64,000 nucleotides of DNA, from the NCBI RefSeq assembly GCF_030818015.1, contig NZ_JAUSZX010000001.1, positions 4,526,001 through 4,590,000 of the forward strand. The letters run 5' to 3'. This document shows positions 8,456 to 28,816 of this stretch, piece by piece. Position 1 is the first letter of the stretch. Every line of letters begins with the position of its first letter. Both the position numbers and the translations under genes were made by a program. Under the pieces are notes generated by a model. That model did not search any database and had not been told where the DNA came from. It was given only the letters and a program-made list of their open reading frames with translations. The DNA comes from Arthrobacter globiformis (lineage in GTDB: Bacteria; Actinomycetota; Actinomycetes; Actinomycetales; Micrococcaceae).

Positions 8456-8480
8456 TTACGAAATCTCGGTTATCGGCGTT
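8456..8480 (+). repeat. Directional repeat site A
   Basis: Copy A of the dispersed repeat. It has TTACGAAATCT on the left and GGTTATCGGCGTT on the right, followed by AAACAACG as in copies E and I. It marks the left edge of the repeat-bearing region, in the gap downstream of the gluconokinase gene. Confidence 0.8.
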
Positions 8481-8611
8481 AAACAACGCCAGTCAAGAGG
8501 GGTGAATTTGGGCCTCCAGCTGGCACGTCTACCTCGAAAGCTTGGGCGTTTCGGACTTCGATCGCATTGTCGGCGAACCGGGTCAGCATCCATTGTGACC
8601 TGACGCGATGC

Positions 8612-9172
8612 TCAGGGTTGCCGTTTAAGCATCTCGAATGGCGAAGAACCTATTGTTTCCGTCAGCCAGTGAGCCACGGCCGCGGCGATGGTGGGCGGTG
8701 TGTCTGAGATGTCAAAGACTGCGCCTTTTTCATCAGCGTCGAGCTGTTCGATTGCCTCGAGCTGGGACTGAAGCAGTGTGACCGGCATGAAGTGTTCCTC
8801 CCTGCGGGACATTCTGGCGTGTAGCAGGGCGGCGCTTCCCGTTAGATGTATGAAAACAGTCTCTGGTGCTGCTTGCCGGATGAGGTCGCGGTACGAGCGT
8901 TTTAGCGCGCTGCAGGCGATGACGATCGGTCCTTCCGCAGAGGCCAATCGCAGTCCGACTTTCCGGAGCCATGGGCCGCGGTCTGCGTCGGTGAGGGCTT
9001 GGCCCTTTGCCATTTTTTCGATGTTAGATGTCGGGTGAAGGTCATCGCCGTCCAGGAAGTGTGCATCGAGCATTTCCGCGAGGGTGTGGCCGATCAGGCT
9101 TTTGCCGCTCCCGGAGACTCCCATGGTGATGATGCGGAGTCTGTCCGTCGACGGTGGATGCTGCTCGGTCAT
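8612..9172 (-). CDS. gntK: Gluconokinase
   Basis: A kinase of about 186 residues that phosphorylates gluconate to 6-phosphogluconate in the cytoplasm. It has the P-loop GVSGSGKS near the N terminus, the family motif DGDDLHP, and the SALKRSYRD region typical of GntK. The length is usual for the family. ATG 9172 is preferred to ATG 9190 because it overlaps the stop of the upstream regulator gene by 4 nt (ATGA) and has AAAGG seven bases ahead. It is therefore co-transcribed with the IclR gene. Its presence suggests that the divergent MFS and SDR genes feed gluconate or a keto-derivative into the pentose phosphate pathway. Confidence 0.92.
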   Translation of the reverse strand: MTEQHPPSTDRLRIITMGVSGSGKSLIGHTLAEMLDAHFLDGDDLHPTSNIEKMAKGQALTDADRGPWLRKVGLRLASAEGPIVIACSALKRSYRDLIRQAAPETVFIHLTGSAALLHARMSRREEHFMPVTLLQSQLEAIEQLDADEKGAVFDISDTPPTIAAAVAHWLTETIGSSPFEMLKRQP

Positions 9173-9951
9173 CCGGTTGCCTTTGCCCATGAGGGTGCGG
9201 TCTCGCCTTTAGGCTTCCAGCCGAGCTCGAGCGAAATGGACATGGTTGTCGCCAGAAGGTCAGGAACGCTGCGGCGGAGCTCTTCCAGGCCGGTCTTCTC
9301 CCGGAACGTTGTAATTGATATGGCGCCGGCTACACGATCTGCGTGATCCCATACGGGTGCCGCTATGCAGTTCGAGACGATGTCGAACTCGCCGTCGTCC
9401 TCAGCCCATCCTCGAGCGCGTACCGTTTCAAGACGCTTCACAAATTCGGATCTGGAAGTGATGGAGTTGGGCGTCCGTTGTTCAAAGGTGGCGTTATCCA
9501 GGATGGACTCACGACGGGCACCATCAATGAACGCGAGAATGGCCTTACTGACCCCGGCTGTGTGGATGACTACGAATCCGCCGATTCTTGTGTTCAGGCT
9601 GATGGATTGTTCGGGTTCGACTTTATCGACATAGACAATGCGGCTGGCTTCCGGCACGGCGAACTGAACGGTGTGGCCAAGGTGTTCACTGAGCCGGACG
9701 ATGTGGGGGTGAACGACTGACCTGAGATCGAACTGTTCCAAGGCTGACTGTGCCAGGCCGGCGAGTCTGAACCCGACGCCGAAATAGCCGCGCTCGTCAG
9801 TCCGCACAAACCCCGCTTCGATCATGGTCTGCAGGATCCTGGATGCCGTTGTCCTGTGAACCCCCAGGTCTGCGGCAATGTCTTTCAGCGTCCGCGGGTG
9901 TTCACTGCAATACTCCAGAATTTGGATTGCCCGGGCTACCGTCTGCGACAT
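9169..9951 (-). CDS. IclR-family transcriptional regulator
   Basis: A 260-residue regulator. An N-terminal winged helix (TLKDIAADLGVHRTTASRIL, residues 21-40) is followed by the IclR effector-binding domain. It is divergent from the MFS-SDR-mutarotase operon and overlaps gntK downstream, so it most likely controls both transcripts in response to a sugar acid. The 428-nt divergent region contains three GTGCA-N5-TGCAC-type inverted repeats, which are the best candidates for its operators. The effector cannot be read from the sequence. Confidence 0.92.
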   Translation of the reverse strand: MSQTVARAIQILEYCSEHPRTLKDIAADLGVHRTTASRILQTMIEAGFVRTDERGYFGVGFRLAGLAQSALEQFDLRSVVHPHIVRLSEHLGHTVQFAVPEASRIVYVDKVEPEQSISLNTRIGGFVVIHTAGVSKAILAFIDGARRESILDNATFEQRTPNSITSRSEFVKRLETVRARGWAEDDGEFDIVSNCIAAPVWDHADRVAGAISITTFREKTGLEELRRSVPDLLATTMSISLELGWKPKGETAPSWAKATG

Positions 9952-10168
9952 GGTTTCTGCTCGATCCTGTGTTTTGGTGGTCGGTCGGGTTTACGGCTCA
10001 TCAGCTGATCAGGCTTCCCAGTTTAGACAGCGGGCCAACGCCTGAACCGTGCCGCCAGCCCGGTCTGCCCCTTTTCGCCCGGCGTGCCCCCGGCGCAGAG
10101 GACGATGACAGGTTTGTGCCCCAAAGAATCGGGCCCTATCTCCCTACAAGATCTCCCCCACAAGCTAG

Positions 10169-10303
10169 GTGCATCATGCGCACATGGGGTGTACAAATCT
10201 ACGACTCCGTCCGGGCGGCAGTCAAGGTGAATTGTCCCGGTTTAGCCAGAATAAACGGCCGCATCTGTGCATCTATTGCACTACGTGTGCATATGGTGCA
10301 CAC
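10169..10303. promoter_or_regulatory. Three IclR-type operator candidates
   Basis: Within the 428-nt divergent gap there are three related inverted repeats with identical 5-nt spacers. They are GTGCA-N5-CGCAC at 10169-10183, GTGCA-N5-TGCAC at 10267-10281, and the extended perfect GTGTGCA-N5-TGCACAC at 10285-10303. The last lies about 75 nt before the MFS start. Their repetition between a regulator and its divergent target suggests operator sites. No protein-binding evidence is available. Confidence 0.6.
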
Positions 10304-10379
10304 TGTTTCTCGAGTACGCCAGTCGTTTGGATCGCCAGATGATCCGTTTGCGGCTTTGAATTAAGCCAAAGGAGTCTTG

Positions 10380-11753
10380 ATGAAGACATTGATTTCCGCC
10401 AGGCAGCGCTCGGCCCAGCTCACCTTCGGGGAGCTTGGGGACCGGACCCTGGCAAAGGTACGGCGCCGGATCATCCCCGTGATCTGCCTTCTATATTTCG
10501 TCGCGTTTTTGGACCGGAACAACGTCGGTTTTGCCAAGCTGACCATGAGCCAAGACATCGGCCTGACTGCCTCGGCGTATGGTCTTGGTGCCGGTATTTT
10601 CTTTATTGGGTATGCCCTGTTCGAAGTCCCGAGCAATGGAGGCATGTACAGGTTCGGGGCGAGGAAGTGGATCGCCCGGATCCTGGTCAGCTGGGGCATC
10701 TGTGCCACCGCCATGGCGCTGGTCAGCGGTGAGACGACGTTCTACGTGATCCGTTTCCTGCTCGGAGCCGCCGAAGCCGGCTTCTTTCCCGCCGTTGTCT
10801 TCTACCTCACCCTGTGGTTCCCCGCCGCACAGCGGGTCACCGTCCTCGGGCTGTTCATCCTGGCCCAGCCGATCTCCAACGCCATCGGCGCACCCCTCTC
10901 CGGTCTTCTGCTGAACCTGGACGGGCTGCTGGGCCTCCATGGATGGCAGTGGCTGTACATCATTGAAGGCATCCCCGCCGTCATCCTGGGGTTCCTGGCC
11001 CCTCGCTTGTTGACCGACCGCCCCGAGGAGGCCCACTGGCTCCGTCCGGACGAACGCAGCTGGTTGAGCACGACCATGGCGAACGAGCTGGCGGAGAAGC
11101 AGCGCAGCGGTTCACACAGCTTCCTGGACGGGCTCAAAGACCGGCGCGCCCTCGTGTACGCGTTCTTGAACTTTGGCATGGTCTGCGGTATCTACGGCTT
11201 TGGATTGTGGCTGCCCACCGTGGTCGCCGGACTGGGCAAGCTCGATCCCGCCCAGGTTGGCTTCATCGTCGTCATCCCGTATGCGGCAGCAGCGTTCTTC
11301 GTCTTCTACTGGAGCCGCCGGTCCGACCGGACCGGCAAACGCGCAGTACACGCCAGCATCAGCATGCTCATCGCAGCATTCGGGCTGACGGGAGCCGCGT
11401 TCCTCCTCCCGGTCAACCCTGTCGCAGCACTGGTATTCCTCACGATTGCCGCCATGGGCGTGTTCTCCGCGACAGCGCCCCTCCTTTCCATGCCATCGGC
11501 CGCCTTGGGCGGCGCGGCCGCGGCTGCGGGCCTGGCGCTGGTCAACTCCATCGGAAACGTCGGAGGATTCGTAGCCCCCTACGCGGTCGGGCTGCTCAAC
11601 GACGCCACGCATAGCAACCTTGCCGGCTTGCTCTTCCTGGCCGCCTGCCTGGTGATTACGGCCATCGCCACGTTCCTCTACGCACGGAACCGGCCCGAAG
11701 GCACAGCCGCTCCCAGCGCCGTCGCAGCAGCCGAACTAGCCAAGACCAATTAG
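10380..11753 (+). CDS. MFS importer, anion:cation symporter type
   Basis: A 457-residue, twelve-helix permease. Early in the protein, LDRNNVGFAKL and the GAGIFFIGYALFEVPSN segment are characteristic of the ACS group (galactonate, glucarate, phthalate and similar acids). ATG 10380 is preferred to the TTG just before it because GGAG at 10371-10374 is at normal spacing. It is the first gene of a three-gene operon with an SDR dehydrogenase and an RbsD/FucU mutarotase, and is divergent from the IclR gene. A sugar acid is the likely cargo because a gluconokinase is encoded across the same control region. Confidence 0.88.
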   Translation: MKTLISARQRSAQLTFGELGDRTLAKVRRRIIPVICLLYFVAFLDRNNVGFAKLTMSQDIGLTASAYGLGAGIFFIGYALFEVPSNGGMYRFGARKWIARILVSWGICATAMALVSGETTFYVIRFLLGAAEAGFFPAVVFYLTLWFPAAQRVTVLGLFILAQPISNAIGAPLSGLLLNLDGLLGLHGWQWLYIIEGIPAVILGFLAPRLLTDRPEEAHWLRPDERSWLSTTMANELAEKQRSGSHSFLDGLKDRRALVYAFLNFGMVCGIYGFGLWLPTVVAGLGKLDPAQVGFIVVIPYAAAAFFVFYWSRRSDRTGKRAVHASISMLIAAFGLTGAAFLLPVNPVAALVFLTIAAMGVFSATAPLLSMPSAALGGAAAAAGLALVNSIGNVGGFVAPYAVGLLNDATHSNLAGLLFLAACLVITAIATFLYARNRPEGTAAPSAVAAAELAKTN

Positions 11754-11795
11754 TCGCAGCCGGAGAACCGGCTGGCATGAAAGGAACAAATCATC

Positions 11796-12557
11796 GTGTT
11801 TGAACAGTCACTGCGCGGAAAGACCGCTCTGATTACAGGCGGAGGCACCGGCATCGGCCAAGGCATCGCCCTCGCCCTCGCCAAGACCGGAGCCAGAATC
11901 GCCATCACCTACAACAACCACAAACCCGACCAGGATTTCGCCGATGAAGTGGAACGCCACACGGGACACCCCCTTACCTCCCTGCAGCTGGACGCGACCA
12001 TCGAAACGGAAGTCCAGAGGACAGTCGAGGCCCTCGGCCGCGACTTTGGCCGGCTGGACATTCTTGTCAACAATGTCGGCGGGCTCATTCAGCGCTCTGC
12101 CATCGGCGATATGGATTTCAAACTCTGGAAGCAGGTCCTGGCCGTCAACCTGGACAGCACCTTCCTCATGACCCACTTCGCCCTGCCACTGATCAACGGC
12201 GGCGGCCGCATCATCAATGTCGCCTCGCTGGCAGGCCGTAATGGCGGACACGCCGGGGCGACAGCCTACGCCACATCCAAAGCCGGCATCTTTGGCTTCA
12301 CCCGTGGGCTTTCAAAAGAGTTGGCATCATCCGGTATCACCGTCAATGCCTTGGCCCCTGGCTTCATCGAAGCGACACCCTTCCACGACACCTTCACCAC
12401 TTCCGAGTCCAAAGCCGCCACGATCGAGACGATCCCGCTCGGAAGGGCCGGAGTTCCCGAAGACGTAGCCGGGGCAGCGTTGTGGCTTGCCTCCGAGCAC
12501 GCGCGCTTCGTCACAGGCACAGTTGTCGACATCAACGGCGGACAGTACTTCGCATGA
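11796..12557 (+). CDS. SDR-family dehydrogenase
   Basis: A 253-residue short-chain dehydrogenase. It shows the nucleotide motif TGGGTGIGQG near the N terminus, NNVG in the middle, the catalytic Ser region and YATSK, and the C-terminal substrate loop. Length is standard. The GTG start at 11796 follows AAGGAAC. It lies between an acid-sugar importer and a mutarotase, so it probably interconverts a sugar acid and its keto form before gluconokinase acts. The exact substrate is not readable. Its stop overlaps the next start by 4 nt. Confidence 0.9.
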   Translation: MFEQSLRGKTALITGGGTGIGQGIALALAKTGARIAITYNNHKPDQDFADEVERHTGHPLTSLQLDATIETEVQRTVEALGRDFGRLDILVNNVGGLIQRSAIGDMDFKLWKQVLAVNLDSTFLMTHFALPLINGGGRIINVASLAGRNGGHAGATAYATSKAGIFGFTRGLSKELASSGITVNALAPGFIEATPFHDTFTTSESKAATIETIPLGRAGVPEDVAGAALWLASEHARFVTGTVVDINGGQYFA

Positions 12558-12979
12558 TCACCGGCCAACTGACGCATCCACGCATCATCTCAGCGCTGGC
12601 AGCAGCTGGCCACGGTGCCACAGTCCTCATCACCGACGGACACTATTCAGCAGCCACGGCAGTCGGACCAAACGCACAAACCGTCTACCTGAACCTGCAG
12701 GCAGACTTTCCAACAGTGCCCCAGGTCCTGGCCGTCGTCCTGGGCACCGTCCGAATCGAAAAACTAACGCGGATCACGCCCTCCGAAGACGCAACTCCAT
12801 GCCTCGTTCATGCACAAATCGATGACCTAACGCCCGAAGGCACCGAAACAGAGTTCGTTGACCGGTTCGAATTCTATAGTCTCGCCCGATCACAGAATCT
12901 TGCCTTGTGCATCGTGACGGGCGACTCACGGCGCTTCGCGAACGCACTGCTGACCGTGGGCGTACTCCAAAGGGGCTAA
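12554..12979 (+). CDS. RbsD/FucU-family sugar mutarotase
   Basis: A 141-residue RbsD/FucU-fold protein that interconverts sugar anomers. The family signatures are the start region HPRIISALAAAGHGATVLITDGHY and, near the C terminus, a conserved region around FYSLARSQ and VTGDSRRFAN. ATG 12554 overlaps the SDR stop (ATGA), giving translational coupling. In this operon it would present the correct anomer or lactone-forming sugar to the dehydrogenase. Fucose or a related aldose is possible, since FucU-type proteins of this length act on fucose, but this is inference. Confidence 0.85.
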   Translation: MITGQLTHPRIISALAAAGHGATVLITDGHYSAATAVGPNAQTVYLNLQADFPTVPQVLAVVLGTVRIEKLTRITPSEDATPCLVHAQIDDLTPEGTETEFVDRFEFYSLARSQNLALCIVTGDSRRFANALLTVGVLQRG

Positions 12980-13083
12980 AACGCTGAGTGAACGTCTGAC
13001 ACCAATAACCAGAATGGTATCTGCGTTCGGGCATGCACCAACACTTTCTAGGCTCCCCGTCGCTCTGCAGTAACGAGCGACCG

Positions 13084-13132
13084 GGTGACCGTGCCGGTCA
13101 CAGGCGGTGGCTGCTGTGACCGGCCCGTCACC
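13084..13132 (+). terminator. Long hairpin after the mutarotase operon
   Basis: A perfect 11-bp stem (GCCGGTCACAG at 13093-13103 with CTGTGACCGGC at 13114-13124) is extended by an outer GGTGAC/GTCACC pair. There is no T-run. It probably ends the operon that stops at 12979, although it also precedes the gene at 13172. Confidence 0.5.
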
Positions 13133-13171
13133 GTGGCCGATGAGCTGTGCACGCCCGCTTAGAATGCTCCT

Positions 13172-13618
13172 GTGAAGCGGACTTATCACTCGGGTTCCAT
13201 GAGAAAGCCTCCTGGCGTGCACCCCAACAGCGTGCAGCCCAACAACGATCCCAACCAGCGCCCCAGTAACAGAAGCCTCCGCTTCTGGTCTGGATACTGG
13301 GCCGTGTTTTGGACTCTCTTACTTGGGGTGGGGTCCGCGGTTGGATACGTTTTCCTGAGCAACGTGATCATCGGGCGACCCATTGGCATCCTGTCGGTCC
13401 TGTTCTTCGTGCTCGGATGCGGACTCGGGCTGGGTCTCTGTCTCCCCGAGCACTTCAAAGTCGCCCGTAAGAAGCGGGCCGAGTTTGTGAGGGCTGGCGG
13501 TGATCCTACGGGAATTACTCCTTGGATGTTCGGTGCGATGAGAGGAAGCATCACTGAGGACGGTGTGTGGGAGTGGTACACCCCGTCGGGCTCAAGCGGA
13601 GAGTCAAGTGCGATGTAG
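13172..13618 (+). CDS. Small two-helix membrane protein
   Basis: A 148-residue protein I do not recognise. A polar N-terminal 45 residues is followed by two hydrophobic segments (about 48-70 and 77-96) and a cytosolic tail with a Trp-rich end. GTG 13172 is supported as a leaderless start by TAGAAT at 13160-13165, six bases upstream; ATG 13199 is the alternative. It is the last gene before the first of the closely spaced repeat sites, and a short terminator follows site B. Confidence 0.6.
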   Translation: MKRTYHSGSMRKPPGVHPNSVQPNNDPNQRPSNRSLRFWSGYWAVFWTLLLGVGSAVGYVFLSNVIIGRPIGILSVLFFVLGCGLGLGLCLPEHFKVARKKRAEFVRAGGDPTGITPWMFGAMRGSITEDGVWEWYTPSGSSGESSAM

Positions 13619-13695
13619 TCTCGCGTATCCGTTCTGGCGCGGGGCCCCTATGCGCAGGCGTTAATTGCGGGGACTTCTCGGACCACTCCCGCAGG

Positions 13696-13721
13696 TTGAC
13701 GAAACGTCGGTTATCGGCGTT
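13696..13721 (+). repeat. Directional repeat site B
   Basis: Copy B: TTGACGAAACGT, then CGGTTATCGGCGTT. Its right flank (CCAAAATGCCCGG, then GAGAGGCCC) is shared with copy H, so the similarity extends about 40 nt beyond the core. Confidence 0.85.
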
Positions 13722-13740
13722 CCAAAATGCCCGGGGGAGA

Positions 13741-13760
13741 GGCCCAAAAGGGCCTTTTCC
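13741..13760. terminator. Short terminator GGCCC-AAAA-GGGCC
   Basis: A 5-bp GC stem with an A4 loop is followed by TTTTCC, so it can end transcription from the gene at 13172. A similar hairpin follows copy H, so it may be part of the longer repeat unit. Confidence 0.5.
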
Positions 13761-14447
13761 TTACCTCCCGATGAGCGACCTGTCAGACGGCGGCGGGGCT
13801 GCCTGCGGATCTTCGTCGATGCTGTAGATAGTTTCGAATCTGTCGGTGATCCTGGTGATGTCCTCAAGCGTGATGCTAATGAAGGCTGACCGCTTCTTCA
13901 GGTGCAGGAAGAGCTCTGTTGACGGCCATGTCATCTGGTCAACATATGTCCCGAATGATCGCCCGCTGGCTCTCGTGTAGGCCGACAGAGCCTGTTGGCC
14001 CGTGATCCTTCTGCCGTATGTAAGCTCGATGTCGACATCACCTATTGGATCTATTTCCGGGCTGAGGTAGCTCCCGAAGACCCTGAGCGTATCGATGAAC
14101 ATGGGCTTGCCCGGGTCCGCGTTGTAGGCCTGTGCCCGTTCCAGCAACTCGGAAACGAGCCGGTCTGCAGTCCTTCTGCTGATCGGTTTTCCGAAGCTGG
14201 CCATCGCCAGGGCATTTCCTTGAATGGTCGTGTCCCACCAGACGTCTCCGTCGTCATCGACGCGGACCCTCTCCATATATCCGGCAGCTTCCAGCCCCGC
14301 AAAGACCGCATCCAGTTCATATCCGGCGTCTTCGAGCAGGTCTGCGACGGCTTCTGCGACCATCTCCCGGCCTCTGAACTTACGCACAATCGCACGAGCC
14401 AGCTCGGCCGGCAGTCCAGCGATAGCATCGGTTTTTGAAACCCTCAT
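13761..14447 (-). CDS. Nucleotidyltransferase-fold protein
   Basis: A 228-residue protein. The first 75 residues look like a small helical, possibly HTH-like region. Near residue 115 there is a polymerase-beta-type nucleotidyltransferase motif, FGSY followed about ten residues later by GDVDIEL, meaning the Gly-Ser and Asp-x-Asp metal ligands are present. Proteins of this fold include antitoxin-type and antiviral nucleotidyltransferases, but the target here is unknown. ATG 14447 is chosen over the in-frame TTG two codons earlier. It is the only gene between repeat sites B and C, and is encoded against the direction of the sites. Confidence 0.7.
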   Translation of the reverse strand: MRVSKTDAIAGLPAELARAIVRKFRGREMVAEAVADLLEDAGYELDAVFAGLEAAGYMERVRVDDDGDVWWDTTIQGNALAMASFGKPISRRTADRLVSELLERAQAYNADPGKPMFIDTLRVFGSYLSPEIDPIGDVDIELTYGRRITGQQALSAYTRASGRSFGTYVDQMTWPSTELFLHLKKRSAFISITLEDITRITDRFETIYSIDEDPQAAPPPSDRSLIGR

Positions 14448-14496
14448 GCCCAAAGCCTAAGCACCAAACAGCGGAAGTCTTCGATCGTTGCGCAGG

Positions 14497-14522
14497 TCGT
14501 CGAAAGGTCCATTATCGGCGCT
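14497..14522 (+). repeat. Directional repeat site C
   Basis: Copy C: TCGTCGAAAGGT, then CCATTATCGGCGCTT. It is in the same orientation as all other copies and lies 50 nt upstream of the start of the minus-strand gene at 14447. Confidence 0.8.
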
Positions 14523-14787
14523 TATATTTTGGCCGAGGAAAGGTAGGAGGAGCGCAAGGGCATGGCCTCGGTCTAGGCTGACTCCCGTGGTTCCCCCGTT
14601 TATCCAGCCGGCTCGACCAGGTAGGGGCCCGTTGTTCCGGACGCGGTTTGCGACCGGGCCCGCGAGTTTCACCTCTTTCACCAGTTTCACCTGCTTTCAC
14701 CTCGAAGTCTGGAGATCAGGGAGGGCCCGGGTCGACCGCGCGGCAACGGCACGGACGGAAGCGTCAAGGGATGCCATGACCCCCGGC

Positions 14788-15800: not shown

Positions 15801-15866
15801 CCGGGGCTCCCGTACTCAGCCTCGCCCGGAGGTGGAGAATGACTCGTCGGACTACTCCCCCCAAGG

Positions 15867-15884
15867 TTGACGAACACAGGCGTT
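15867..15884 (+). repeat. Directional repeat site E (internally deleted)
   Basis: TTGACGAACAC is followed directly by AGGCGTT, so the central TTATC block is missing. The right flank (CAAACAACGGGAGTAGAAGTAGC, 15885-15907) matches the right flank of copy F over GGGAGTAGAAGTAGC, which confirms the relationship. Confidence 0.6.
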
Positions 15885-16143
15885 CAAACAACGGGAGTAG
15901 AAGTAGCTTCGGGAACTCCCGTTCCATGGTCGATCCCGGTGTTTCCCCGGGTCAAAGTGCGCGACGCCGCAAGAGAATTTCGCTGCGGTCATCCGATGTG
16001 CAGCGATCGGCGCCAAAGCTATAGGTCCCCAAACAGCCAGAATCTATCCTCTTCGCCATTCCACATTTTCCGATACAAAAAGGGCCATTCCTCCTAAAAT
16101 TGTTTCATCGCTTCAAAGCGTTTGGCGGGAAAGGAGAGGAAAA

Positions 16144-16614
16144 ATGAACAAGACATTGAATGCAAAGCAATGGCCACTCATCCTCGGCGCATCGGCCGCA
16201 CTGGTCCTGTCCGCGTGCTCAGGCGGTGGCACGGAGGAACCGTCGGCCGGCCCGCAGTCAGGGGAAACAGCCAAGGCCGCGTCGAAGGCTCCCGCCGCCC
16301 CGAAGGCTCCCGCCGCCCCCGCCATGACCGCGGGGCAGAAGAACGCCCTGGGCAAGGCTGAGAGCTACCTGTCGGTGTCGGCGTTCTCCCGCCCCGGCCT
16401 GATCAAGCAACTGGAGTTCGAGAAGTATCCAACTAAGGATGCGACGTGGGCGGTCGATCACCTCAAAGTCAACTGGAAGGAGCAGGCCGCGAAGAAGGCG
16501 AAGAGCTATCTGGATACGTCGTCGTTCTCGCACCAGGGCTTGGTCGACCAGTTGGTGTTCGAGGGATTCACCGCGGCCGAGGCTGAATACGGTGTCACCA
16601 AGGCCGGGCTCTAA
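16144..16614 (+). CDS. Ltp-family lipoprotein
   Basis: A 156-residue lipoprotein with a signal ending in Leu-Ser-Ala-Cys near residue 26, a Lys/Ala/Pro linker, and then two tandem repeats of about 47 residues. The repeats begin ALGKAESYLSVSAFS and AAKKAKSYLDTSSFS, each followed by a GL-x-x-QL-x-FE segment. This double repeat is the Ltp fold. The family member from Streptococcus phage TP-J34 blocks DNA entry by incoming phage, so a superinfection-exclusion role is plausible but not shown here. A strong ribosome site (AAAGGAGAGG) precedes ATG 16144. It is the only gene between sites E and F. Confidence 0.82.
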   Translation: MNKTLNAKQWPLILGASAALVLSACSGGGTEEPSAGPQSGETAKAASKAPAAPKAPAAPAMTAGQKNALGKAESYLSVSAFSRPGLIKQLEFEKYPTKDATWAVDHLKVNWKEQAAKKAKSYLDTSSFSHQGLVDQLVFEGFTAAEAEYGVTKAGL

Positions 16615-17203
16615 AATCGGACGCCCGGCCATATTCAAGAGGCGGTGTATGCCTGGTTTCCCAGCGCTCAGAAAGAAGAACCGGCGGTACCCACAGCCGC
16701 AACTGCCTCTTCAGGGGATCGGTTCCGGCAAGGGGACGGGGTTGGCGACCTGCCAGTGGTAGTTCCTGAATACATCCCATTCGGAGCAGGCGTCCCCGCA
16801 GCCGTCCGAATGGTGGATGGCCACCAAATCAAGATGACCAAGGAGGGCACCTGTAATCAGGGGGCCACCTTTCACGGCCATGACGAGAAGGTCGGGCCGG
16901 GACCGGTCAGGCACGCTGCTGGCGTGGATCCCGAGCCGACCCCGGTAGCTGGTGGCCCGAGGTGCAGCTGCTTCATGCTCTTGGGCGAGGTGTGGACTGG
17001 CATGCCCCTAAACCATGGGGAGCCAGCGGCGGCCAGGTTAAAGACCGGCACGGCCTCCACTGGCTAATAGGCTACGAACCCCAGCCGTAGCTTGACGGAA
17101 TCTCCATTATCGGGCGTTAAAAGCGTGGGAGTAGAAGTAGCTGCAAGAAGTCCTGCCCATGAAAAACTCTGTCTTGCGAAGTTCGTCATGATGCCGCTGG
17201 GTG
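16615..17203. other. Gap holding site F only
   Basis: I see no supported gene here. The open frames have random composition and no ribosome sites. The right end holds repeat site F with its extended flank GGGAGTAGAAGTAGC. Confidence 0.5.
17092..17118 (+). repeat. Directional repeat site F
   Basis: The copy closest to the consensus: TTGACGGAATCT, then CCATTATCGGGCGTT, with one extra G. It is preceded by CCGTAGC, as in M and H, and followed by AAAAGCGT and GGGAGTAGAAGTAGC. Confidence 0.9.
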
Positions 17204-17887: not shown

Positions 17888-18059
17888 TGGGCACTCTCTT
17901 TCTGAGGCCGTGAATCGCCCCGCGGGCTAGCCTAGCCGTCACTAGTGATTCCCCAAGGATCGACGGAACCGCGGCTAACCCTAAGTGATCAGGGACCACA
18001 CCTTCTGGTGGAGCTGGGCCGGTCCGATCCCTCAGCAGAACAAGGTAGGCAGGCTTAGG

Positions 18060-18084
18060 TTGACGAAAGGTCCCTTATCGGCGT
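18060..18084 (+). repeat. Directional repeat site G
   Basis: Copy G: TTGACGAAAGGT, then CCCTTATCGGCGT. It is 68 nt upstream of the first possible start of the DUF3800 gene. Confidence 0.85.
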
Positions 18085-18151
18085 CGGTAACGTCGTTTCC
18101 GACCTCAGCCAGTGGTGCCCCGACACGCCGCCGTGGGTCGGGAACACGACT

Positions 18152-18874
18152 TTGGTGCTGTCTAATCAGAAGGTGCTAACAGCTTTCCTAGATGAGTCTT
18201 ACACAGAGCAGGCCTACTACATTGCGGCGGTGATAGTAGATGCTCCATCACTAAAAAAACTTGAGTTGGAACTCACTCGACTTAAGGTGAAGATCGCAGA
18301 CGATCTGAACATTTCGGTGCTGGCCGAGTTCCATGGGAACGAACTCATGTCGGGCAAGGCCGATTGGTCGTTGATCAAGGGCGATGTCGAAACCGCGAAA
18401 TGGGTTTACAAGTCAGCCCTGGAAGCTATAAAAGACAGCGGCGCCCATTTCATGTACGTGGCCATCGATGTGGATCTTCTCAACAGGCGGTATTCCAAGC
18501 CGTATGATCCGCGTCTGGTCGCTCTCACCTATCTGCTTGAGGCTTTGGATAGGTACGCACTAGGCAACCAGGAGCACATTCGCGTTGTAGCCGATTACAT
18601 CACCAAGCACAACCAGCTTCAGAAAAAGATCAACGAATTCCATGACTCCGGAACGTTTGGCTGGCGACAGAGCACTTTGCGGCGGATTGAGCAGCCCATC
18701 GAATTCTTGGATTCTAAGCACACGCTTGGGTTGCAAGCGGCTGATCTCGTTGCATACATTGTGCGGCGTCATTTAGAGGCTCCCCCAACTACGAATGCTA
18801 GAGCGAGGAAGCTGGCTCGCCAGCTATACGGCACGCTTGACGGGGCTTGGCGCCACTGCCGACGATGGCCCTGA
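18152..18874 (+). CDS. DUF3800-family protein
   Basis: A 240-residue DUF3800 protein. The family signature FLDES is near the N terminus (TAFLDESYT) and the second conserved block, LGLQAADLVAYIVRRHLE, is near residues 193-210. Family members have an RNase H-like fold and often sit in mobile or defence-rich DNA; the biochemical role is not established. The gene is visibly AT-richer than its neighbours, suggesting transfer. The start is TTG 18152 or the following GTG 18155. It sits alone between sites G and H, with its own terminator. Confidence 0.82.
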   Translation: MVLSNQKVLTAFLDESYTEQAYYIAAVIVDAPSLKKLELELTRLKVKIADDLNISVLAEFHGNELMSGKADWSLIKGDVETAKWVYKSALEAIKDSGAHFMYVAIDVDLLNRRYSKPYDPRLVALTYLLEALDRYALGNQEHIRVVADYITKHNQLQKKINEFHDSGTFGWRQSTLRRIEQPIEFLDSKHTLGLQAADLVAYIVRRHLEAPPTTNARARKLARQLYGTLDGAWRHCRRWP

Positions 18875-18906: not shown

Positions 18907-19382
18907 CATGGACAACGGCCGCTTTCGACTCGTCGTGATTCGACTGTAGTCCACTTAGTTCTGACGGTTAGAACAATGTGATACATCTCATACTAGCGTG
19001 TCTCGCGGTTGGATTTTGGCGTATCCAGGGGTACCCCCGCCGACCTCACGGGTTGACAGAACCTGCCGACCGGCAAATGTGCCACAGGCTGTGGCACCTT
19101 CAAGGAAAGGGCCACTGGGGCACAGTGGACCGATGCCGGCCGATTAACCGCGGGCATCGGACGCCGTAGCTGGAAGGGCGCTAGATGGCGGAATATCCGT
19201 TATCGGCGTTTCAAAATGGCCGGTGAGAGGCCCGGAAAGGGGCCGCTTCACCAGCCCGTGAAGGTCCTGTTGGCCAGCTGTGGCGAGACTTGTGGGTCTT
19301 GCGTAGCTGTCCGGTCCTCAATCTGTCAGTCTCTCCCGGCGCAAAGTGACCGACGGGTGTTGGAGTCACATGCTCTTACCGT
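18907..19382. other. Gap holding site H
   Basis: No supported gene. Site H and its hairpin-like right flank (GAGAGGCCCGGAAAGGGGCC region) are the only features seen. Confidence 0.45.
19185..19210 (+). repeat. Directional repeat site H
   Basis: Copy H: ATGGCGGAATAT, then CCGTTATCGGCGTT. The right flank TCAAAATGGCCGG and GAGAGGCCC matches copy B. Confidence 0.85.
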
Positions 19383-20338: not shown

Positions 20339-21007
20339 AATGGTTGTTCAGGCAGTATGCCGGTGTCCCGTTACTAATTCAGCGGCCGCGATGACGCGGT
20401 CTGTGCCTAGCTTTCAGAGTGCCCACAAGAATCATGATGGCGGGTCGCGTCAAGGTCTTCGGTTACGCGCAACAGCGAACATCTGTATCTACTTCCCACG
20501 TTAGCAGTCGCTCCAAATTAATTGGGCAAGCAGATCACCAGCAGTGTTTTACCCGCGTCCACAAAGAAACGAGCCTGCGGCAAACAGAGGTCTTTGTTGG
20601 GCTGTGACCGATATTCCCGCAACTTCCGTGTCACTTGCAAGTCAAGGGTGCAGGCGACCATTGCGAAGCAAATTCAGCACCATAGATCAGCCTGCAACTT
20701 CGGTCCTCGATTACTGCGATTCAAATCCTGCGCTGGGAGGAGCTCAGCTTCCTGATCATTGACCATACTGGACCGTGTCAAGATTTTTGCGTCGGCGCTT
20801 CGGCGGCCGGCTGAGGCCTGTTCATATCTCCTGAGATTACCAAGCGCACCAAAACCCGTGCGAACGGACGGTTCTATACGGGTTGCCACGTGGGCGTGTC
20901 CGACGATTTTTCATAGTGTTGGCCGGCGAACTGGGCCGACCCCGGTGGTTGATACCCCAAGCACCGGTTTCTGACAACACACTCTAAAGGTCACCCACTC
21001 CCCAGCC

Positions 21008-21032
21008 TTACAGAATCTCGATTATCGGCGGT
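21008..21032 (+). repeat. Directional repeat site I
   Basis: Copy I: TTACAGAATCT, then CGATTATCGGCGGT, followed by CAAACAACGGG as in copy E. Confidence 0.85.
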
Positions 21033-21388
21033 CAAACAACGGGTCGCACATCGTGAGCCGTCGGACGACGTGACCGCCCGTGTAGGTGAGTTACTGCGGT
21101 TGAACGGGGCCCCTGCGCCGTACAGGGCGTGACGCAGGGGCTCCTAGACCGCTCCAGCTCTTGGGGAAAGCTGGGGTGCCCTGCAGATAACCTATCCGGA
21201 GCCACGGCAGCGAAGCCGCGGTCATATCCGATTTTGATAATTCTTGAGCAAACCTTGAGCCCAGCAGGTGGGAGGATTTCCCTGGACGTTTCTTATTGCT
21301 GCTGGGGTTTGGGTTTGTTCATGCAGCTATTCTCGGGCTCGCTTCCGTTGCCGGATAATGGTGTCCCCTCCACGCCTTTTTCACTGGC

Positions 21389-22462: not shown

Positions 22463-22482
22463 AATGAATGAAGCCATTCATT
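22463..22482. promoter_or_regulatory. RpiR operator candidate
   Basis: A perfect inverted repeat, AATGAATG-AAGC-CATTCATT, in the divergent gap 150 nt from the regulator start and 104 nt before the MFS start. Position and symmetry suggest the regulator's binding site. Confidence 0.6.
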
Positions 22483-22586
22483 CTCCGCCTAGGCTCCGAT
22501 GCCTACCGGCTATGGCCTTGCGGCTCGCCCACCCTCACGCCTGCCCGCCCCATTACCTGCTATTTCTTGGAAATCTAGGAGCAAAG

Positions 22587-23954: not shown

Positions 23955-24085
23955 ACTCCGACCAGCCCCAACCAGCGCGTGACCGAAGCCCGTCTCTCCG
24001 TCTGTTGCCGGAGCGCGCCGCAACCAATCCCGGATTCCCGCCCGAGGTCCGGCACCCCTATCCAGGGAAGGAGGTAGACCCAACC

Positions 24086-24763
24086 GTGGGAACGATCCTT
24101 CTAATCAACCCAAACACCAGCGAGTCAACAACAGCGGAAATGGTGAACGTCGCCCGCGCATGCAGCCCAACATGCCAGACCATAGTGGGGGCAACAGCAC
24201 ATCGGGGCTCTGCGCTCATAGACGACGCCGCCAAACTCGCAACCAGCGCACAGGCCGTCCTCGAGTACGCCCAAAGCACGGAACTGGAACGATATTCGGG
24301 CATCATCGTGTCGGCGTTCGGCGACCCCGGACTGGAGGAGCTCCGACGCCACTCCCCCGTCCCGGTGACAGGGATCGCAGAGGCAGGAATACTCGAAGCC
24401 GCACAGAACGGCCGCCGATTCTCCATAGTGACAACCACTCCGAAACTGGCCGCCACCATCAACCGGAAAGTGGCCGAATACGGCTTCACGGATCTCTACG
24501 CAGGCCTTCGCCTGACACCGGGAGACCCCGCCGACGTAATGAGGAACCCTGCCCTGCTCCAAGCCAGCCTCATACAGGCTTGTCAGACGGCCATATCAGA
24601 GGATTCAGCCGAAGCCATCGTCATCGGCGGAGGACCACTCGCGATGAGCGCAGTCGCCCTGCGCCAAAAATTCTCCGTCCCAATCATCGAACCCGTCCCA
24701 GCCGCGGTACACCTCGCCTTGGCAAGAGCAACCCAGCACCAGCTCTTCAGATCGGTTTGGTGA
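24086..24763 (+). CDS. Asp/Glu-hydantoin racemase-like protein without catalytic Cys
   Basis: A protein of about 225 residues with the Asp/Glu/hydantoin racemase fold, beginning TILLINPNTSESTT as is usual for the family. The two loops that normally carry catalytic cysteines read VSAFGDPGL (Ala in place of Cys) and IVIGGGPL (Gly in place of Cys), so neither Cys is present. It is therefore unlikely to be a classical two-Cys racemase and may be a decarboxylase-like or isomerase-like relative. GTG 24086 is chosen because GGAGG lies 13 nt upstream; the earlier in-frame ATG 23951 gives a Pro/Arg-rich extension. Confidence 0.78.
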   Translation: MGTILLINPNTSESTTAEMVNVARACSPTCQTIVGATAHRGSALIDDAAKLATSAQAVLEYAQSTELERYSGIIVSAFGDPGLEELRRHSPVPVTGIAEAGILEAAQNGRRFSIVTTTPKLAATINRKVAEYGFTDLYAGLRLTPGDPADVMRNPALLQASLIQACQTAISEDSAEAIVIGGGPLAMSAVALRQKFSVPIIEPVPAAVHLALARATQHQLFRSVW

Positions 24764-24832
24764 ACGACCCGAAGCGGCCAAATGGCATCCACCCCTGACG
24801 CACACTCTTCACCAACAAAAGGAGAACCTAGC

Positions 24833-25924
24833 GTGACCATCACCAGCGAACTAGTCTCGAGCATGACCGAACCAACTACAGGCAGCCCCGACCCTGCCGA
24901 ACAGGCCCGGCTTCCGCACGAAACCTTTGACAACAGGTCAATGGAATTGCCCGACGAACTGATCCGAGGGACCAGCGACGTTCACGTGCACAGCGGCCCA
25001 TGGCTCCAGTCCTGCCCCGGCCGGCTCGACCCCTTCCAAATCGCCGAACAAGCCAAAGCCGCGGGAATGAAATCACTGGTCTTCTACGATCACACCCTCG
25101 GTATCAGCAGCGGCACCGCCCAGCTGACGAGCCGACAGGTTCCAGGAATCAAAATCTTCGGAGGCATCATCCTCACCAGCGTCCTGGGCGGCCTAAACCC
25201 CCGAGCCGTGAAAACCGCACTGCACTACGGATCCGGGGCGAAATTCGTCCACTTCGGCGCGCACTGCACGCACTACATGGTCACCCACGAGGGAAGCTAT
25301 GTTGACGGCAAGCCCGTCCGGTTCGTGGATCATTATCCCAAGTTCGCGAAGGACGAATTGCCACGCTCAATCCGCATCCCCCTCGACGACCCCATTCCCG
25401 AAGAACTCGAAGAAATCCTCACCCTCATCGCAGAGCGCCCCGATGTCCACCTCAACACGGGCCACCTCTCCGTCGACGAAGCAATCCGCCTCGCAGATCT
25501 CGCCATCACCTTCGGCATCAAGAAAATCGTCGTAGCCCACCCCTGCCGAGCACGAATGACCACCGACCAACAGAAAGAACTCGCCCAAAAAGGCGTCCTG
25601 CTCGAAGGCGCTGTATCCGACTGGATGTTCCACCGAGGACTACGCCGGACCAACTACTACGTCGAGCGTGAACTGGCCGACGAAATCGCCGGCATTGCCA
25701 GCACCCCGCAACTCAGCGCCGGCGTTGTGCCCTGGGCCAAACAGATCAGGGAGATCGGCATCAAACACTTCATCCTCGGCACTGACTACGGAATCCGCTC
25801 CGGCCCCACCCCCGTCGAAGGAATGCGCACCCTCATCAGCACACTCCTTGACCTGGAATTCACGTCAGAAGAAATCCACACCCTAACCAAGACGAACCCC
25901 GACAGACTCCTCGACCTCGACTGA
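24833..25924 (+). CDS. DUF6282-like amidohydrolase
   Basis: A 363-residue protein with metal-hydrolase features. There is an HxH-type start (DVHVHSGPW near residue 50), HFGAHCTHY, an HPCRARM segment and a late Asp in LGTDYG, consistent with the TIM-barrel amidohydrolase superfamily and with DUF6282. GTG 24833 follows GGAG by eight bases and is preferred over ATG 24782. It is the last gene of the RpiR-controlled operon and probably hydrolyses a cyclic amide or lactone. The substrate is unknown. Confidence 0.78.
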   Translation: MTITSELVSSMTEPTTGSPDPAEQARLPHETFDNRSMELPDELIRGTSDVHVHSGPWLQSCPGRLDPFQIAEQAKAAGMKSLVFYDHTLGISSGTAQLTSRQVPGIKIFGGIILTSVLGGLNPRAVKTALHYGSGAKFVHFGAHCTHYMVTHEGSYVDGKPVRFVDHYPKFAKDELPRSIRIPLDDPIPEELEEILTLIAERPDVHLNTGHLSVDEAIRLADLAITFGIKKIVVAHPCRARMTTDQQKELAQKGVLLEGAVSDWMFHRGLRRTNYYVERELADEIAGIASTPQLSAGVVPWAKQIREIGIKHFILGTDYGIRSGPTPVEGMRTLISTLLDLEFTSEEIHTLTKTNPDRLLDLD

Positions 25925-25973
25925 CTCCACCATCTTCCCCAACAAGGCAGGGATGTCGCCCTCCTGATCACGT

Positions 25974-26012
25974 TTAGGCTGGGCCGCAAGCACAGCTTGC
26001 GGCCCAGCCTAA
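25974..26012. terminator. Perfect 18-bp hairpin terminator
   Basis: An uninterrupted 18-bp stem (TTAGGCTGGGCCGCAAGC, loop ACA, perfect complement), 50 nt after the amidohydrolase stop. There is no T-run, which is common in high-GC actinobacteria. Confidence 0.8.
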
Positions 26013-26043
26013 GTTCCGCCCCTTCCCTACTCGTACGGGGGCC

Positions 26044-26068
26044 TGACGAAATATCCGTTATCGGTGCT
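26044..26068 (+). repeat. Directional repeat site K
   Basis: Copy K: TGACGAAATAT, then CCGTTATCGGTGCT, followed by GGAAGTAGCTGC, a partial match to the flank of copies E and F. Confidence 0.85.
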
Positions 26069-26185
26069 TTGCAACAGCATTGGAAGTAGCTGCTCACTGG
26101 CGAATACTTCCACTTTTCGCTTGCCGTTTTCACCGTTTCGGTGCAGTATTTGGGCCTAGGCGTCGGCCGATGATGTGGAGACGTT

Positions 26186-26860
26186 TTGGACGAGACCATC
26201 AAATACAGAGAAGAGCTCGTGCGTACGGCAGACGAGCTTAAGCGGCTCAGCCTGAAGCGGCAGGACTTGGTACGGCAGTACGACGCTGAGCAGAAATCTC
26301 TTAAGCCGAGATATAACGAGTCTGAGCAGGCAGCTGCGGCCCGGAAGAACACTCTGGAAGTAGACTTCCACACTAAATTGGTCCGTCTCGAAGAGGAGAT
26401 GCATCAGGTATTTGCGCGCGAGAGAAACGCCAGGGAGCAGTTAGCCGAATCGAGCCGCAAGCTTGATGAGCAGTTGCGCGCCGTCGAGACTCGGGCGTAC
26501 GCCACTACCCGTCCGCCGCTCGGGCCTGGCTTACGTTTGACCGAGCAGGACTACCGACAGGCTCAGAAGAGCATTCCCCCATTTGCTTTCTTCATGGCTA
26601 TATCTGCGGTTGTTTTTGTATCAGTAGTAGCGAACTCTAATCCGGACCTTCCTCTGGAGCTAACAATCGCCCAATCGCTTCTGGGCCTCGCAGTCCCGAC
26701 TGTCATAGGGCTTCGGGCCAACTACTATGCCAAACGCAACGACCGCCGTGCTGAAGAGCAGTTGAAAATGCAACGCGATGCAGCGAAGGCTGAATTTGGA
26801 GCCGAACGTGACGCTCCAGATGACCTGGTTGTAGAGGCAAAGAATGACAATGATCAATGA
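26186..26860 (+). CDS. Coiled-coil protein with two membrane helices
   Basis: A 224-residue protein I do not recognise. Residues 1-100 form a highly charged coiled coil rich in Glu, Lys, Arg and Gln. Two hydrophobic segments follow (about 130-150 and 160-178), then a basic tail. TTG 26186 has GGAG five bases upstream. The gene is AT-richer than the neighbouring catabolic genes, suggesting transfer. It follows site K, and an IS element has inserted just downstream. Confidence 0.65.
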   Translation: MDETIKYREELVRTADELKRLSLKRQDLVRQYDAEQKSLKPRYNESEQAAAARKNTLEVDFHTKLVRLEEEMHQVFARERNAREQLAESSRKLDEQLRAVETRAYATTRPPLGPGLRLTEQDYRQAQKSIPPFAFFMAISAVVFVSVVANSNPDLPLELTIAQSLLGLAVPTVIGLRANYYAKRNDRRAEEQLKMQRDAAKAEFGAERDAPDDLVVEAKNDNDQ

Positions 26861-26875
26861 ATGTGACCACCACCA

Positions 26876-26935
26876 ACAGACGAGCATCCCATGGCAGTCG
26901 CGGGGCAGCCTTATGGAGTGGCTGCTAGCGCTCGT
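26876..26935 (+). repeat. 60-bp direct repeat, left copy
   Basis: Identical to 28702-28761 over all 60 bases. The pair abuts the two ends of the IS and so behaves as a target-site duplication. Confidence 0.9.
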
Positions 26936-28701
26936 CCTGACTTGGCTCATTTGCTTAGTGCGTGAGTTTTGGATTGTGGAGTGCATCGAGGATGGCTTGC
27001 TGGTCGGCGTTGATGTCGGGGGCGAATCTTTGTGTGGTGCCGTTGATGGCGATGGTTGCTGAGCGCAGGGGCCGGAGTTGTTTGATGACGTTGGCGACCG
27101 CCAGTCCGGTCCTGTTTTGGACCGTGCGGGAGAGGGCCAGCGCGGTGAACACGATCGTCAGGTGCGCCTCGATCGCGTCGCGGGTGCGGTGGAACATGGG
27201 CCTGGCCCGCAGGTCTGTCTTGCTCATCCGGAAGGACTGCTCGACGTGCCACAGGTCGTGGTAGGAGCCGATGATTTCCGTTGCGGCCATGACCGTCGCG
27301 GGGATATTCGTGACATAACCCTTGAGGCCGGCCAGTTGCCGGGCACGTGTCAGTGAGGCGTCGTCGAGGCTGCGTTTCCCGCCGGTGGTCTTCACGAAGC
27401 GCGGGACCCGGGCCGCCTTCTGCCCCTCGATGACCTCGCGCGCCCGGTTCTCCTGGGCCGTGAGGGTGGTGGCGTCACGGACCGCTCTCTTCCGCGAGTA
27501 GGCCCACACCGCCCGCCACGAGCCGGGATTCGTTGCGGGGTCCCAGACGGGTTCAGCCCGCACATCGCTGTTGTTCTCGTTCTTATGCCCGGTTCTGGGT
27601 GTGATGGTGTCGATCAGCTGCCCGTCTGTGAACGCGTCGCCGTGCCAGCGGAAATGCGAGGCCAGATCGGCCGGAGCCTTGGTCATTCGGGAGCCGACGA
27701 TGAACCGCAGGTTCGCATCATCCAGCCCACGCAGGTTGCCTGCTGAGAGCATGCCGGCGTCGGCCACGACGACCATATCGGCCAGGTTGTGCCGGGCCTG
27801 GAATTGCTTGATGATCGGGACGATGGTCGCCGTCTCGGCCCTATTGCCTTCGAAGCAGCCGATCTCCAGCGGGAACCCGCCGCGGTCCACCAGCAGACCG
27901 ACGACGATCTGCGGGTCGACGCGGCGTTCTTTGGAGTAGCCGACCTTGCGCAGTTCGTCTTCCTTCTCCGCCTCGAAATAGAGCGTGGTGACGTCGTAGA
28001 GCATGAGGGAGATGTCCCCGCTGGTGCTGGCATGCTGGAAGCACCAGGTCGCGATCCGGTCGCGGTACTTGCCTGCAGCGGCCCGGCCCAGGGTGCGTTT
28101 CATCGTCGAGTAGCTGGCCGCGGACTGGCCAAGATCGCGGAGCACTCTGCCGGTATCAAGCAGTGATGTCGGTTCGACGACCCGGGCGATCACAAGGTCT
28201 CGGAACACTTCGTCACCGAGGCCATCGAACCCCAGCGCCGTGAACACGCTGGCCAAGGCATCGAACAGGATCCCCGAGTCCGTGCCGAGCACGCGTCCCG
28301 GACTGTCGCGACCGGCCGGCGTCACCGCGCCGGCTGTCTCGAAGAGGCCCGCCTCGGCGGGCACAATCAGGCCTTTCATCGGAGGCGTGGGCTCAATACC
28401 GAGCTCGAGGACGCCCTGGGCAGGGTTGTCCAGCAGCTCACGGGCGCGCTGGAGCAGCATGCCGAGTTCGGCCTCCGTATGCGCCGATCCGACGTGCTCC
28501 ACGATCTGCTGCCGGCCACGAACATACTCGGCGATCTGCACTGCCGTCGCTCCCGAGGCCGTCCGAACCCTCCTGATGAACGCCACAACGGAGACACTAG
28601 AACAAAACGCATTAGTGCGTGAAAAGGCACGATTCTGCCAGCATCACCGCAGGTCAGAGCGCTGCACCATCCCAAAACCACCACCCGTGAGCCAAGTCAG
28701 G
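26936..28701 (-). mobile_element. IS1634/IS1549-type insertion sequence
   Basis: A 1766-bp insertion sequence bounded by 14-bp perfect inverted repeats (CCTGACTTGGCTCA at both outer ends) and flanked by an exact 60-bp direct repeat. Long target duplications are a reported trait of the IS1634/IS1549 group. The transposase is intact, and the identity of both direct repeats suggests a recent insertion. Confidence 0.9.
26955..28586 (-). CDS. IS1634-family transposase
   Basis: A 543-residue DDE transposase of the IS4-like IS1634 type. The catalytic Asp residues lie in MLYDVTTLYFE and VVADAGML, and the final Glu is in HVEQSFRMSK, giving the E-x6-K spacing. There is no internal stop or frameshift, so the gene appears functional. 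It lies inside the bounded IS and ends 19 nt from the left terminal repeat. Confidence 0.93.
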   Translation of the reverse strand: MAFIRRVRTASGATAVQIAEYVRGRQQIVEHVGSAHTEAELGMLLQRARELLDNPAQGVLELGIEPTPPMKGLIVPAEAGLFETAGAVTPAGRDSPGRVLGTDSGILFDALASVFTALGFDGLGDEVFRDLVIARVVEPTSLLDTGRVLRDLGQSAASYSTMKRTLGRAAAGKYRDRIATWCFQHASTSGDISLMLYDVTTLYFEAEKEDELRKVGYSKERRVDPQIVVGLLVDRGGFPLEIGCFEGNRAETATIVPIIKQFQARHNLADMVVVADAGMLSAGNLRGLDDANLRFIVGSRMTKAPADLASHFRWHGDAFTDGQLIDTITPRTGHKNENNSDVRAEPVWDPATNPGSWRAVWAYSRKRAVRDATTLTAQENRAREVIEGQKAARVPRFVKTTGGKRSLDDASLTRARQLAGLKGYVTNIPATVMAATEIIGSYHDLWHVEQSFRMSKTDLRARPMFHRTRDAIEAHLTIVFTALALSRTVQNRTGLAVANVIKQLRPLRSATIAINGTTQRFAPDINADQQAILDALHNPKLTH

Positions 28702-28761
28702 ACAGACGAGCATCCCATGGCAGTCGCGGGGCAGCCTTATGGAGTGGCTGCTAGCGCTCGT
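28702..28761 (+). repeat. 60-bp direct repeat, right copy
   Basis: Exact duplicate of 26876-26935, immediately outside the right inverted repeat of the IS. Confidence 0.9.
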
Positions 28762-28791
28762 GTCCGACTCCCCGCCCTGCAGAATCTAGCC

Positions 28792-28816
28792 TTACAGAAT
28801 CTTTATTATCGGCCTT
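28792..28816 (+). repeat. Directional repeat site L
   Basis: Copy L: TTACAGAATCT, then TTATTATCGGCCTTT, followed by AAAAGTAGGTGGGGG. A partial echo, CAGAATCTAGCC, lies 13 nt upstream. Confidence 0.8.

Follow-up and report, generated by a model that had tools for sequence, protein, structure and literature searches.

The chromosome of Arthrobacter globiformis carries, in the 64-kb stretch analyzed here (64,000 nucleotides, positions 4,526,001-4,590,000 of a 4.94-Mb chromosome; hereafter, the window), an array of short repeats with cargo genes between them. Judged by their sequence, these repeats are dif-like XerC/XerD sites, resembling the site through which bacteria ordinarily separate their chromosomes at division, and not serine-recombinase sites. 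We consider it probable (about 0.78) that XerC and XerD, the host tyrosine recombinases, recombine the dif-like sites and that modules pass between plasmids and the chromosome into arrays. This reading draws on the anatomy of the sites, their match to dif, the XerC and XerD genes of the genome, homology that breaks off at the cores, one site of hybrid make-up, and a plasmid-chromosome block whose end coincides with a core in both.

Anatomy of the repeat sites

A position-matrix scan of the window returned 11 strong copies, all on one strand, with 26-bp starts at 8456, 13697, 14498, 17093, 18061, 19186, 21008, 26044, 28792, 45069, and 60928. The first matrix, built from nine of these sites, scored the 11 at 30.3 to 37.4, compared with 10.3 for the next best match on the plus strand and 12.2 for the best on the minus strand, which is the reverse face of site 13697. 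With an iterated matrix, the 11 sites scored 26.5 to 46.3, whereas nothing in 640 kb of block-shuffled sequence exceeded 10.5. Nine strong sites lie within 8456..28816, and sites 45069 and 60928 lie beyond that range. A first-pass annotation of this DNA had counted eleven good and three degenerate copies, all in one orientation; the eleven are borne out and 11/11 are on the same strand, but only one degenerate copy was identified, near 15866-15890 (read by eye, with about 8 bp missing between the arms), along with a weak match at position 7745 (iterated-matrix score 13.3), and the other degenerate copies were not identified.

On the reverse strand, the consensus is TTTTAAACGCCGATAA-TCGAGA-TTCCGTCAAGCT, with six weakly conserved positions in the middle, and the conservation profile has an 11-6-11 layout in which a conserved XerC arm and a conserved XerD arm flank a variable 6-bp center. 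The XerC arm matches the genome's own dif (AACGCCGATAA); ACGCCGATAA is common to the sites and the chromosomal dif at C1:2971163, and CGATAA is shared with the dif of the genus. The own chromosomal dif reads CGATAATCAGCATTATGTAAA at 2,971,163 and is preceded by AACGC. The genus dif, CGATAA-N6-TTATGTMAA, was found in 58/58 good-quality genomes (59 of the 61 searched) and lies at 0.44 to 0.59 of the chromosome from dnaA in all 27 genomes computed; the arms of the dif suggested for Frankia, CACGCCGATAATGCACATTATGTCAAGT, are the same, according to PMC3025954. The XerD arm of the sites is mostly TTYCGTCAA, compared with TTATGTMAA in dif, so that the ends are alike and two positions are changed. The window array is not the chromosomal dif itself, which would be a single copy near the terminus: it has 11 sites at 4.53-4.59 Mb, and dif lies at 2.97 Mb, about 1.55 Mb away. 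As a separate observation, the G-C skew reverses across the sites, from -0.21 (C-rich) in the 30 bp next to the XerC arm to +0.19 (G-rich) in the 30 bp next to the XerD arm (n=147 sites).

Genes for both XerC and XerD are present in the genome (L035, L036). TIGR02225 scored 343 bits, over its cut-off; the XerC candidate scored 309 bits with TIGR02224, under the curated cut-off of 335, yet this was the best of all models for that protein. All eight Phage_integrase matches of the genome lie outside the window, in agreement with the earlier statement that no tyrosine integrase is found here.

The first-pass annotation had taken the repeat for a site suited to a serine recombinase, a claim that does not survive the reading of the reverse complement as a dif-like site with crossover at the core. 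In nine loci (window 60421-60894, L053, L067, L071, L074, L089, L093, L122, and L221), a resolvase gene or fragment does lie close to a site, with one of its ends no more than about 80 bp from the XerD side, and the pASPHE301 relative of the window stretch is PF00239. Serine recombinases, however, typically have a 2-bp central overlap, and the 6-bp core, the dif-matching arms, and the crossovers at or inside the core form the pattern of a tyrosine recombinase; most site-bearing loci, moreover, have no adjacent resolvase. A serine-recombinase site is thus the reading to which we give hardly any weight.

Homology breakpoints at the sites

Sixty-one loci, picked for carrying sites or matches, were compared all against all. 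Among 882 usable alignment ends (alignments of at least 300 bp), 63 had a site no more than 25 bp away in each of the two loci, versus a mean of 0.04 and a maximum of 1 in 500 runs of a shifted-site null; between different genomes, the count was 48/731, with a null mean of 0.027 and a maximum of 2 in 300 runs. These ends are not independent, as the loci were selected and several alignments come from one repeat family, but the contrast with the null is still very large. Most ends (819/882) lay away from sites in one or both loci. The first-pass annotation had proposed that directional sites partition the cargo and that strain comparisons should place breakpoints at them. Homology does end there, far above expectation, and the cargo recurs in shuffled contexts with its breakpoints at the sites.

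At the base level, 14 site pairs were picked because alignments ended at them. Homology was one-sided in 13, ending at or beside the core; the fourteenth pair, located within a duplication, is homologous on either side. pCZY and pACHL02 match at 99.9% over 12 kb, including 16/16 positions of the XerC arm, and diverge from the first base of the core. In NicSoilE8-2, the XerC half of a site, with 626 bp of its flank (99.4%), corresponds to pAO1 site 19138, the XerD half, with 3.9 kb of its flank (96%), corresponds to pAO1 site 12000, and the core, CGGATA, is a mosaic of the pAO1 cores CGGATG and CGAATA. From its sequence, this hybrid is what two such sites would be expected to leave after crossing over inside the core. 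Since the two pAO1 sites are inverted, an inversion would yield it, though the remaining NicSoilE8-2 segment has no match to pAO1. Whole site-to-site units are also shared: one of about 820 bp (85%) occurs in genomes G109 and G063, where neither flank is related, and a second, of about 970 bp (89%) and bounded by inverted sites with the XerC arms inside, occurs in G000 (at 2.2 Mb) and G129.

Homology of this kind also links the window to one of the genome's own plasmids. A block of 8,064 bp (window numbering 60,928-68,985, extending beyond the window to chromosome position 4,594,985) is 99.13% identical to plasmid C3 and ends at a dif-like site in both the chromosome and the plasmid. Comparison of site 11 with plasmid C3 site 6202 gave 16/16 matches in the XerC half, 5/6 in the core, 6/12 in the XerD half, and 21/60 in the flank. 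Across site 11 from the block lies a LacI-type regulator (window 59244-60077) whose Pfam matches do not include a DNA-binding domain; a 746-bp stretch in this region has a 94% match in the plasmid block, at its far end.

Homologous recombination or transposition could also move modules, the sites being inherited boundary marks such as terminators or regulatory sequences. The array does contain an insertion sequence (IS; window 26955-28586), and homologous recombination could be seeded by conserved stretches that lie 50-200 bp away from sites. The breaks are nevertheless located at the 6-bp core or within it, and homology does not continue on the other side; the hybrid site has one half from each parent, and no annotated feature lies under the match in 34/37 plasmid records (E up to 10, with an incomplete gene table). 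We regard this explanation as quite improbable.

Candidate recombinases and the orientation of the sites

XerC and XerD are the most likely actors because they are the host's dif enzymes and the sites contain the XerC arm of dif; on these grounds, we infer that XerCD is the acting enzyme. Two sites would exchange strands in the core, each XerC half and each XerD half traveling with its own neighboring DNA. Modules would pass between plasmids, mostly conjugative, and the chromosome, probably as single-site circles or through cointegrates, and would be joined site to site into accessory-gene arrays. The altered XerD arm and the unmatched cores may keep the array from excision.

Several findings weigh against XerCD-driven movement of modules. 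In most sites, the XerD arm is off dif at two positions: among 149 sites scoring at least 24 (drawn from 167 sites in the 61 loci), 114 have TTYYGT, 14 the dif-like TTA[TC]GT, and 21 neither. An identical core was found in 0/94 adjacent site pairs, and the Acinetobacter reactions described in PMC13141974 involve identical or near-identical spacers. No clean pair of X-site-Y and X-site-cassette-site-Y was found among 101 loci from one genome per species, which is perhaps why gain or loss of a single module with one site kept was not seen. Finally, a second family of tyrosine recombinases lies beside some dif-type sites and could be the actor.

A member of this family, about 377 aa long, distinct from XerC and XerD, and either plasmid-borne or beside dif, might act instead of XerCD, like an integron integrase beside attI. 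The gene or a part of it adjoins a site in pSI-1, pJ337-114, pB, pAO1, NicSoilE8-2 (a 434-bp fragment), G141:C2, and G058, and it is found at the chromosomal dif in G052, G029, G017, G016, G012, G066, and others, about 190-340 bp from dif or dif-type sites. The family, however, occurs in 54/150 genomes and the sites in 93/150, and sites are present in 37 of the 54 genomes with the family compared with 56 of the 96 without it (Fisher p=0.23, assuming the same 150 genomes). There is no clear link, so the recombinase does not appear to be needed for the presence of sites. Among seven sites beside the gene, moreover, five have the arm TTATGT and one TTACGT; only the hybrid NicSoilE8-2 site has the arm usual in arrays, TTCCGT. 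We find this alternative unlikely and retain XerC and XerD as the favored enzymes. Beside the chromosomal dif or a dif-type plasmid site, the gene lies on the XerC side for one subtype and on the XerD side for another (L224, L231, L234, and others, and also the dif region of G040). In pAO1 and pB, a trio of two tyrosine recombinases and a DUF6262 protein, which we take to be Tn554-like, is apparently inserted near the 3' end of the 377-aa gene.

The sites are strongly oriented. Adjacent sites are co-oriented in 51/55 pairs in the fetched stretches of six complete chromosomes (G000, G055, G058, G129, G141, and G191), in 2/4 pairs on plasmid contigs of complete genomes, and in 31/35 pairs on draft contigs. 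On 26 chromosomes, the XerD arm faces dif in 94/103 sites, counting only chromosomal zero-mismatch matches, with dif and plasmid contigs excluded and some genome sizes taken to 0.1 Mb. By zone, the terminus-facing sites amount to 46/46 terminus-proximal on the dnaA-direction arm, 25/32 origin-proximal on the same arm, and 23/25 origin-proximal on the other arm. The nine exceptions all lie near the origin, at relative positions of 0.03-0.23; the dnaA-direction arm holds seven of them and the opposite arm two. Random orientation elsewhere, which the first-pass annotation had set against its own proposal, is therefore not what is seen, although exceptions to the bias exist. The orientation rule covers three zones only and may rest on few independent cases. 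The terminus-proximal sites are all on one arm (46/46), and mid-arm positions from 0.3 to 0.6 (dnaA to dif) hold 0/103 sites.

According to PMC11705084, FtsK is guided to dif by oriented KOPS motifs and is the activator of XerD. The terminus-facing bias would fit such travel toward dif. A broader proposal is that the sites form, in Arthrobacter and its relatives, an integron-like cassette system driven by the host's cell-division recombinases, in which the weakened XerD arm evades routine excision driven by FtsK and plasmid modules accumulate in co-oriented arrays whose polarity follows FtsK; we put it forward tentatively, with more doubt than confidence.

Core identity was also compared between neighbors. 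Among co-oriented neighbors within 20 kb, identical cores were not significantly depleted (3 observed, 3.96 expected). They occurred in 4/36 inverted pairs (0.9 expected) versus 4/178 co-oriented pairs (Fisher p=0.029, from few, non-independent cases). In G129 (L076:9662-16219) and G058 (L093:6595-12791), about 6.2-6.6 kb lie between two inverted sites that both have the core CCGGCC, an arrangement that would allow inversion.

Distribution, related systems, and cargo

With a strict pattern, 93/150 congeneric genomes matched and the control matched in 0/150. In a survey of the family, 60/395 genomes from 8/32 genera matched, 41 of the 60 being from the window's genus even though it made up a minority of the genomes searched. 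A 25-position pattern returned 58 stretches from public species genomes, 43 of them from Arthrobacter, Pseudarthrobacter, or Paenarthrobacter and 15 from other taxa, where some matches will be due to chance. When 72,556 plasmids were searched with the consensus (E up to 10), 37 records matched, 34 of which belong to the Arthrobacter group, including pAO1, pACHL02, and pSI-1, and a similar pattern gave seven stretches in viral contigs, which were scored only.

The nearest known system is that of the Acinetobacter dif modules, compared here on the basis of PMC13141974, PMC12907356, and PMC11705084. In both, XerC-6 bp-XerD sites bound accessory modules on plasmids and chromosome, with crossovers in the spacer (PMC13141974, PMC12907356, PMC11705084); the Acinetobacter modules are shuffled, flow between plasmid and chromosome (PMC13141974, PMC12907356), and move resistance genes (PMC13141974). 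Both systems include a serine recombinase gene in their cargo, and modules with inverted sites occur here too (pAO1 12000/19138; L048 11483/12430). The systems differ in phylum and site sequence, the Arthrobacter XerD arm departing recurrently from host dif, and in the orientation bias toward the terminus in Arthrobacter. The Acinetobacter C and D modules alternate, with inverted sites, whereas the Arthrobacter chromosomal sites are mostly co-oriented. The Acinetobacter modules are on Rep_3/OrfX plasmids; the plasmids seen here are large and were typed as conjugative or, for pSI-1, mobilizable with a MOBP relaxase.

The likeness to chromosomal integrons lies in directional arrays, several small cargo units, and the shuffling of units between contexts. 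The window differs in having a dif-like site, cargo on either strand, no integrase gene, and no attC-type folding. Fold z-scores of -0.15 and -0.25 compared with -0.21 for control flanks, and matched site flanks paired no better than re-paired flanks, in both cases across 147 sites; with no folding signal in these sites, the attC reading was rejected. Integrative mobile elements exploiting Xer (IMEX) likewise use dif mimics to join foreign DNA to the chromosome, but the window array is far from dif and has many sites, not one element at dif.

The first-pass annotation knew of no cassette system with this site. That holds for Actinobacteria, in that the open-licence literature searched yielded no description of such sites in Arthrobacter or other Actinobacteria, but the Acinetobacter dif modules share the logic. 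PMC13141974 (2026) presents the dif-module system as unique to Acinetobacter. Its recurrence in another phylum, both on catabolic plasmids such as pAO1 and in arrays on the chromosome, would mean that it has arisen twice or is far more general, and soil Actinobacteria would gain a cassette system without an integron. It also raises the questions of why many dif-like sites on one chromosome spare each other and whether the direction of FtsK sets their orientation.

The cargo of the window is listed in Table 1. As the first-pass annotation had stated, the intervals from 13.7 to 21.0 kb are mostly single-gene: the list of open reading frames gives one plausible gene in each of six, with the degenerate site counted. 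The other five intervals (8.5-13.7, 21.0-26.0, 26.0-28.8, 28.8-45.1, and 45.1-60.9 kb) are longer, each with at least two genes. Pfam confirmed the Ltp lipoprotein and DUF3800 labels given earlier, and the nucleotidyltransferase and helix-turn-helix (HTH) labels had no Pfam match at E<=0.001.

Table 1. Coordinates of sites, cargo, and neighboring features. Positions are those of the window, except in the last row; the strand of a site is that of its XerC-first orientation.
Feature	Position	Strand	Details
dif-like site 1	8452..8485	-	core CCGAGA; score 41.3
dif-like site 2	13693..13726	-	core CCGACG; score 46.3; XerC-side homology to L091 and L092 only
dif-like site 3	14494..14527	-	core TGGACC; score 34.7
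degenerate site	15866..15890	-	several homology blocks of relatives end at 15872-15874 or begin at 15879
dif-like site 4	17089..17122	-	core TGGAGA; score 41.3
dif-like site 5	18057..18090	-	core GGGACC; score 36.0
dif-like site 6	19182..19215	-	core CGGATA; score 39.4
dif-like site 7	21004..21037	-	core TCGAGA; score 40.9; XerD-side homology to G036 and G065 only
dif-like site 8	26040..26073	-	core CGGATA; score 34.0
dif-like site 9	28788..28821	-	core TAAAGA; score 42.4
dif-like site 10	45065..45098	-	core TGAAGA; score 35.6; beyond 8456..28816
dif-like site 11	60924..60957	-	core TGGAGA; score 26.5; junction of the block shared with own plasmid C3
cargo gene, 230 aa	13761..14453	-	no Pfam match; homologues in other genomes
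cargo gene, 140 aa	15378..15800	+	no Pfam match; homologous DNA in many congeners
cargo gene, Ltp-type host cell surface-exposed lipoprotein	16144..16614	+	PF07553, E=3.8e-31
cargo gene, 227 aa	17204..17887	-	no Pfam match
cargo gene, DUF3800	18152..18874	+	PF12686, E=2.2e-16
cargo gene, 257 aa	19383..20156	-	no Pfam match; homologous DNA in G036, G065, G106, G109, G143
shared block, window part (LacI regulator, sugar-binding protein, onward)	60928..64000	+	99.13% identical to plasmid C3
serine-resolvase-like coding stretch	60421..60894	+	gene or fragment next to site 11 on its XerD side; 84% over 163 aa
recombinase trio	L211:19357-23862; L219:5975-16578		

None of the eight cargo proteins examined belongs to a known defence family, and Rfam gave no match in the window at gathering scores. 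A plasmid search with the array DNA returned only transporter and IS1634-type matches, or unannotated matches at the same places. At the metH end of the array, chromosome synteny stops at 7,429-7,483, with a few separate matches elsewhere. Forty metH-side loci were fetched (L140 is without metH, and L141 stops short of the array side); a site scoring >18 was present in only five of the 40, and metH was rejected as a common integration point.

The IS inside the array encodes a DDE transposase (26955-28586) resembling IS1634-family records. Perfect 60-bp direct repeats stand on either side of it (window 26876-28761) and are perhaps a long target duplication.

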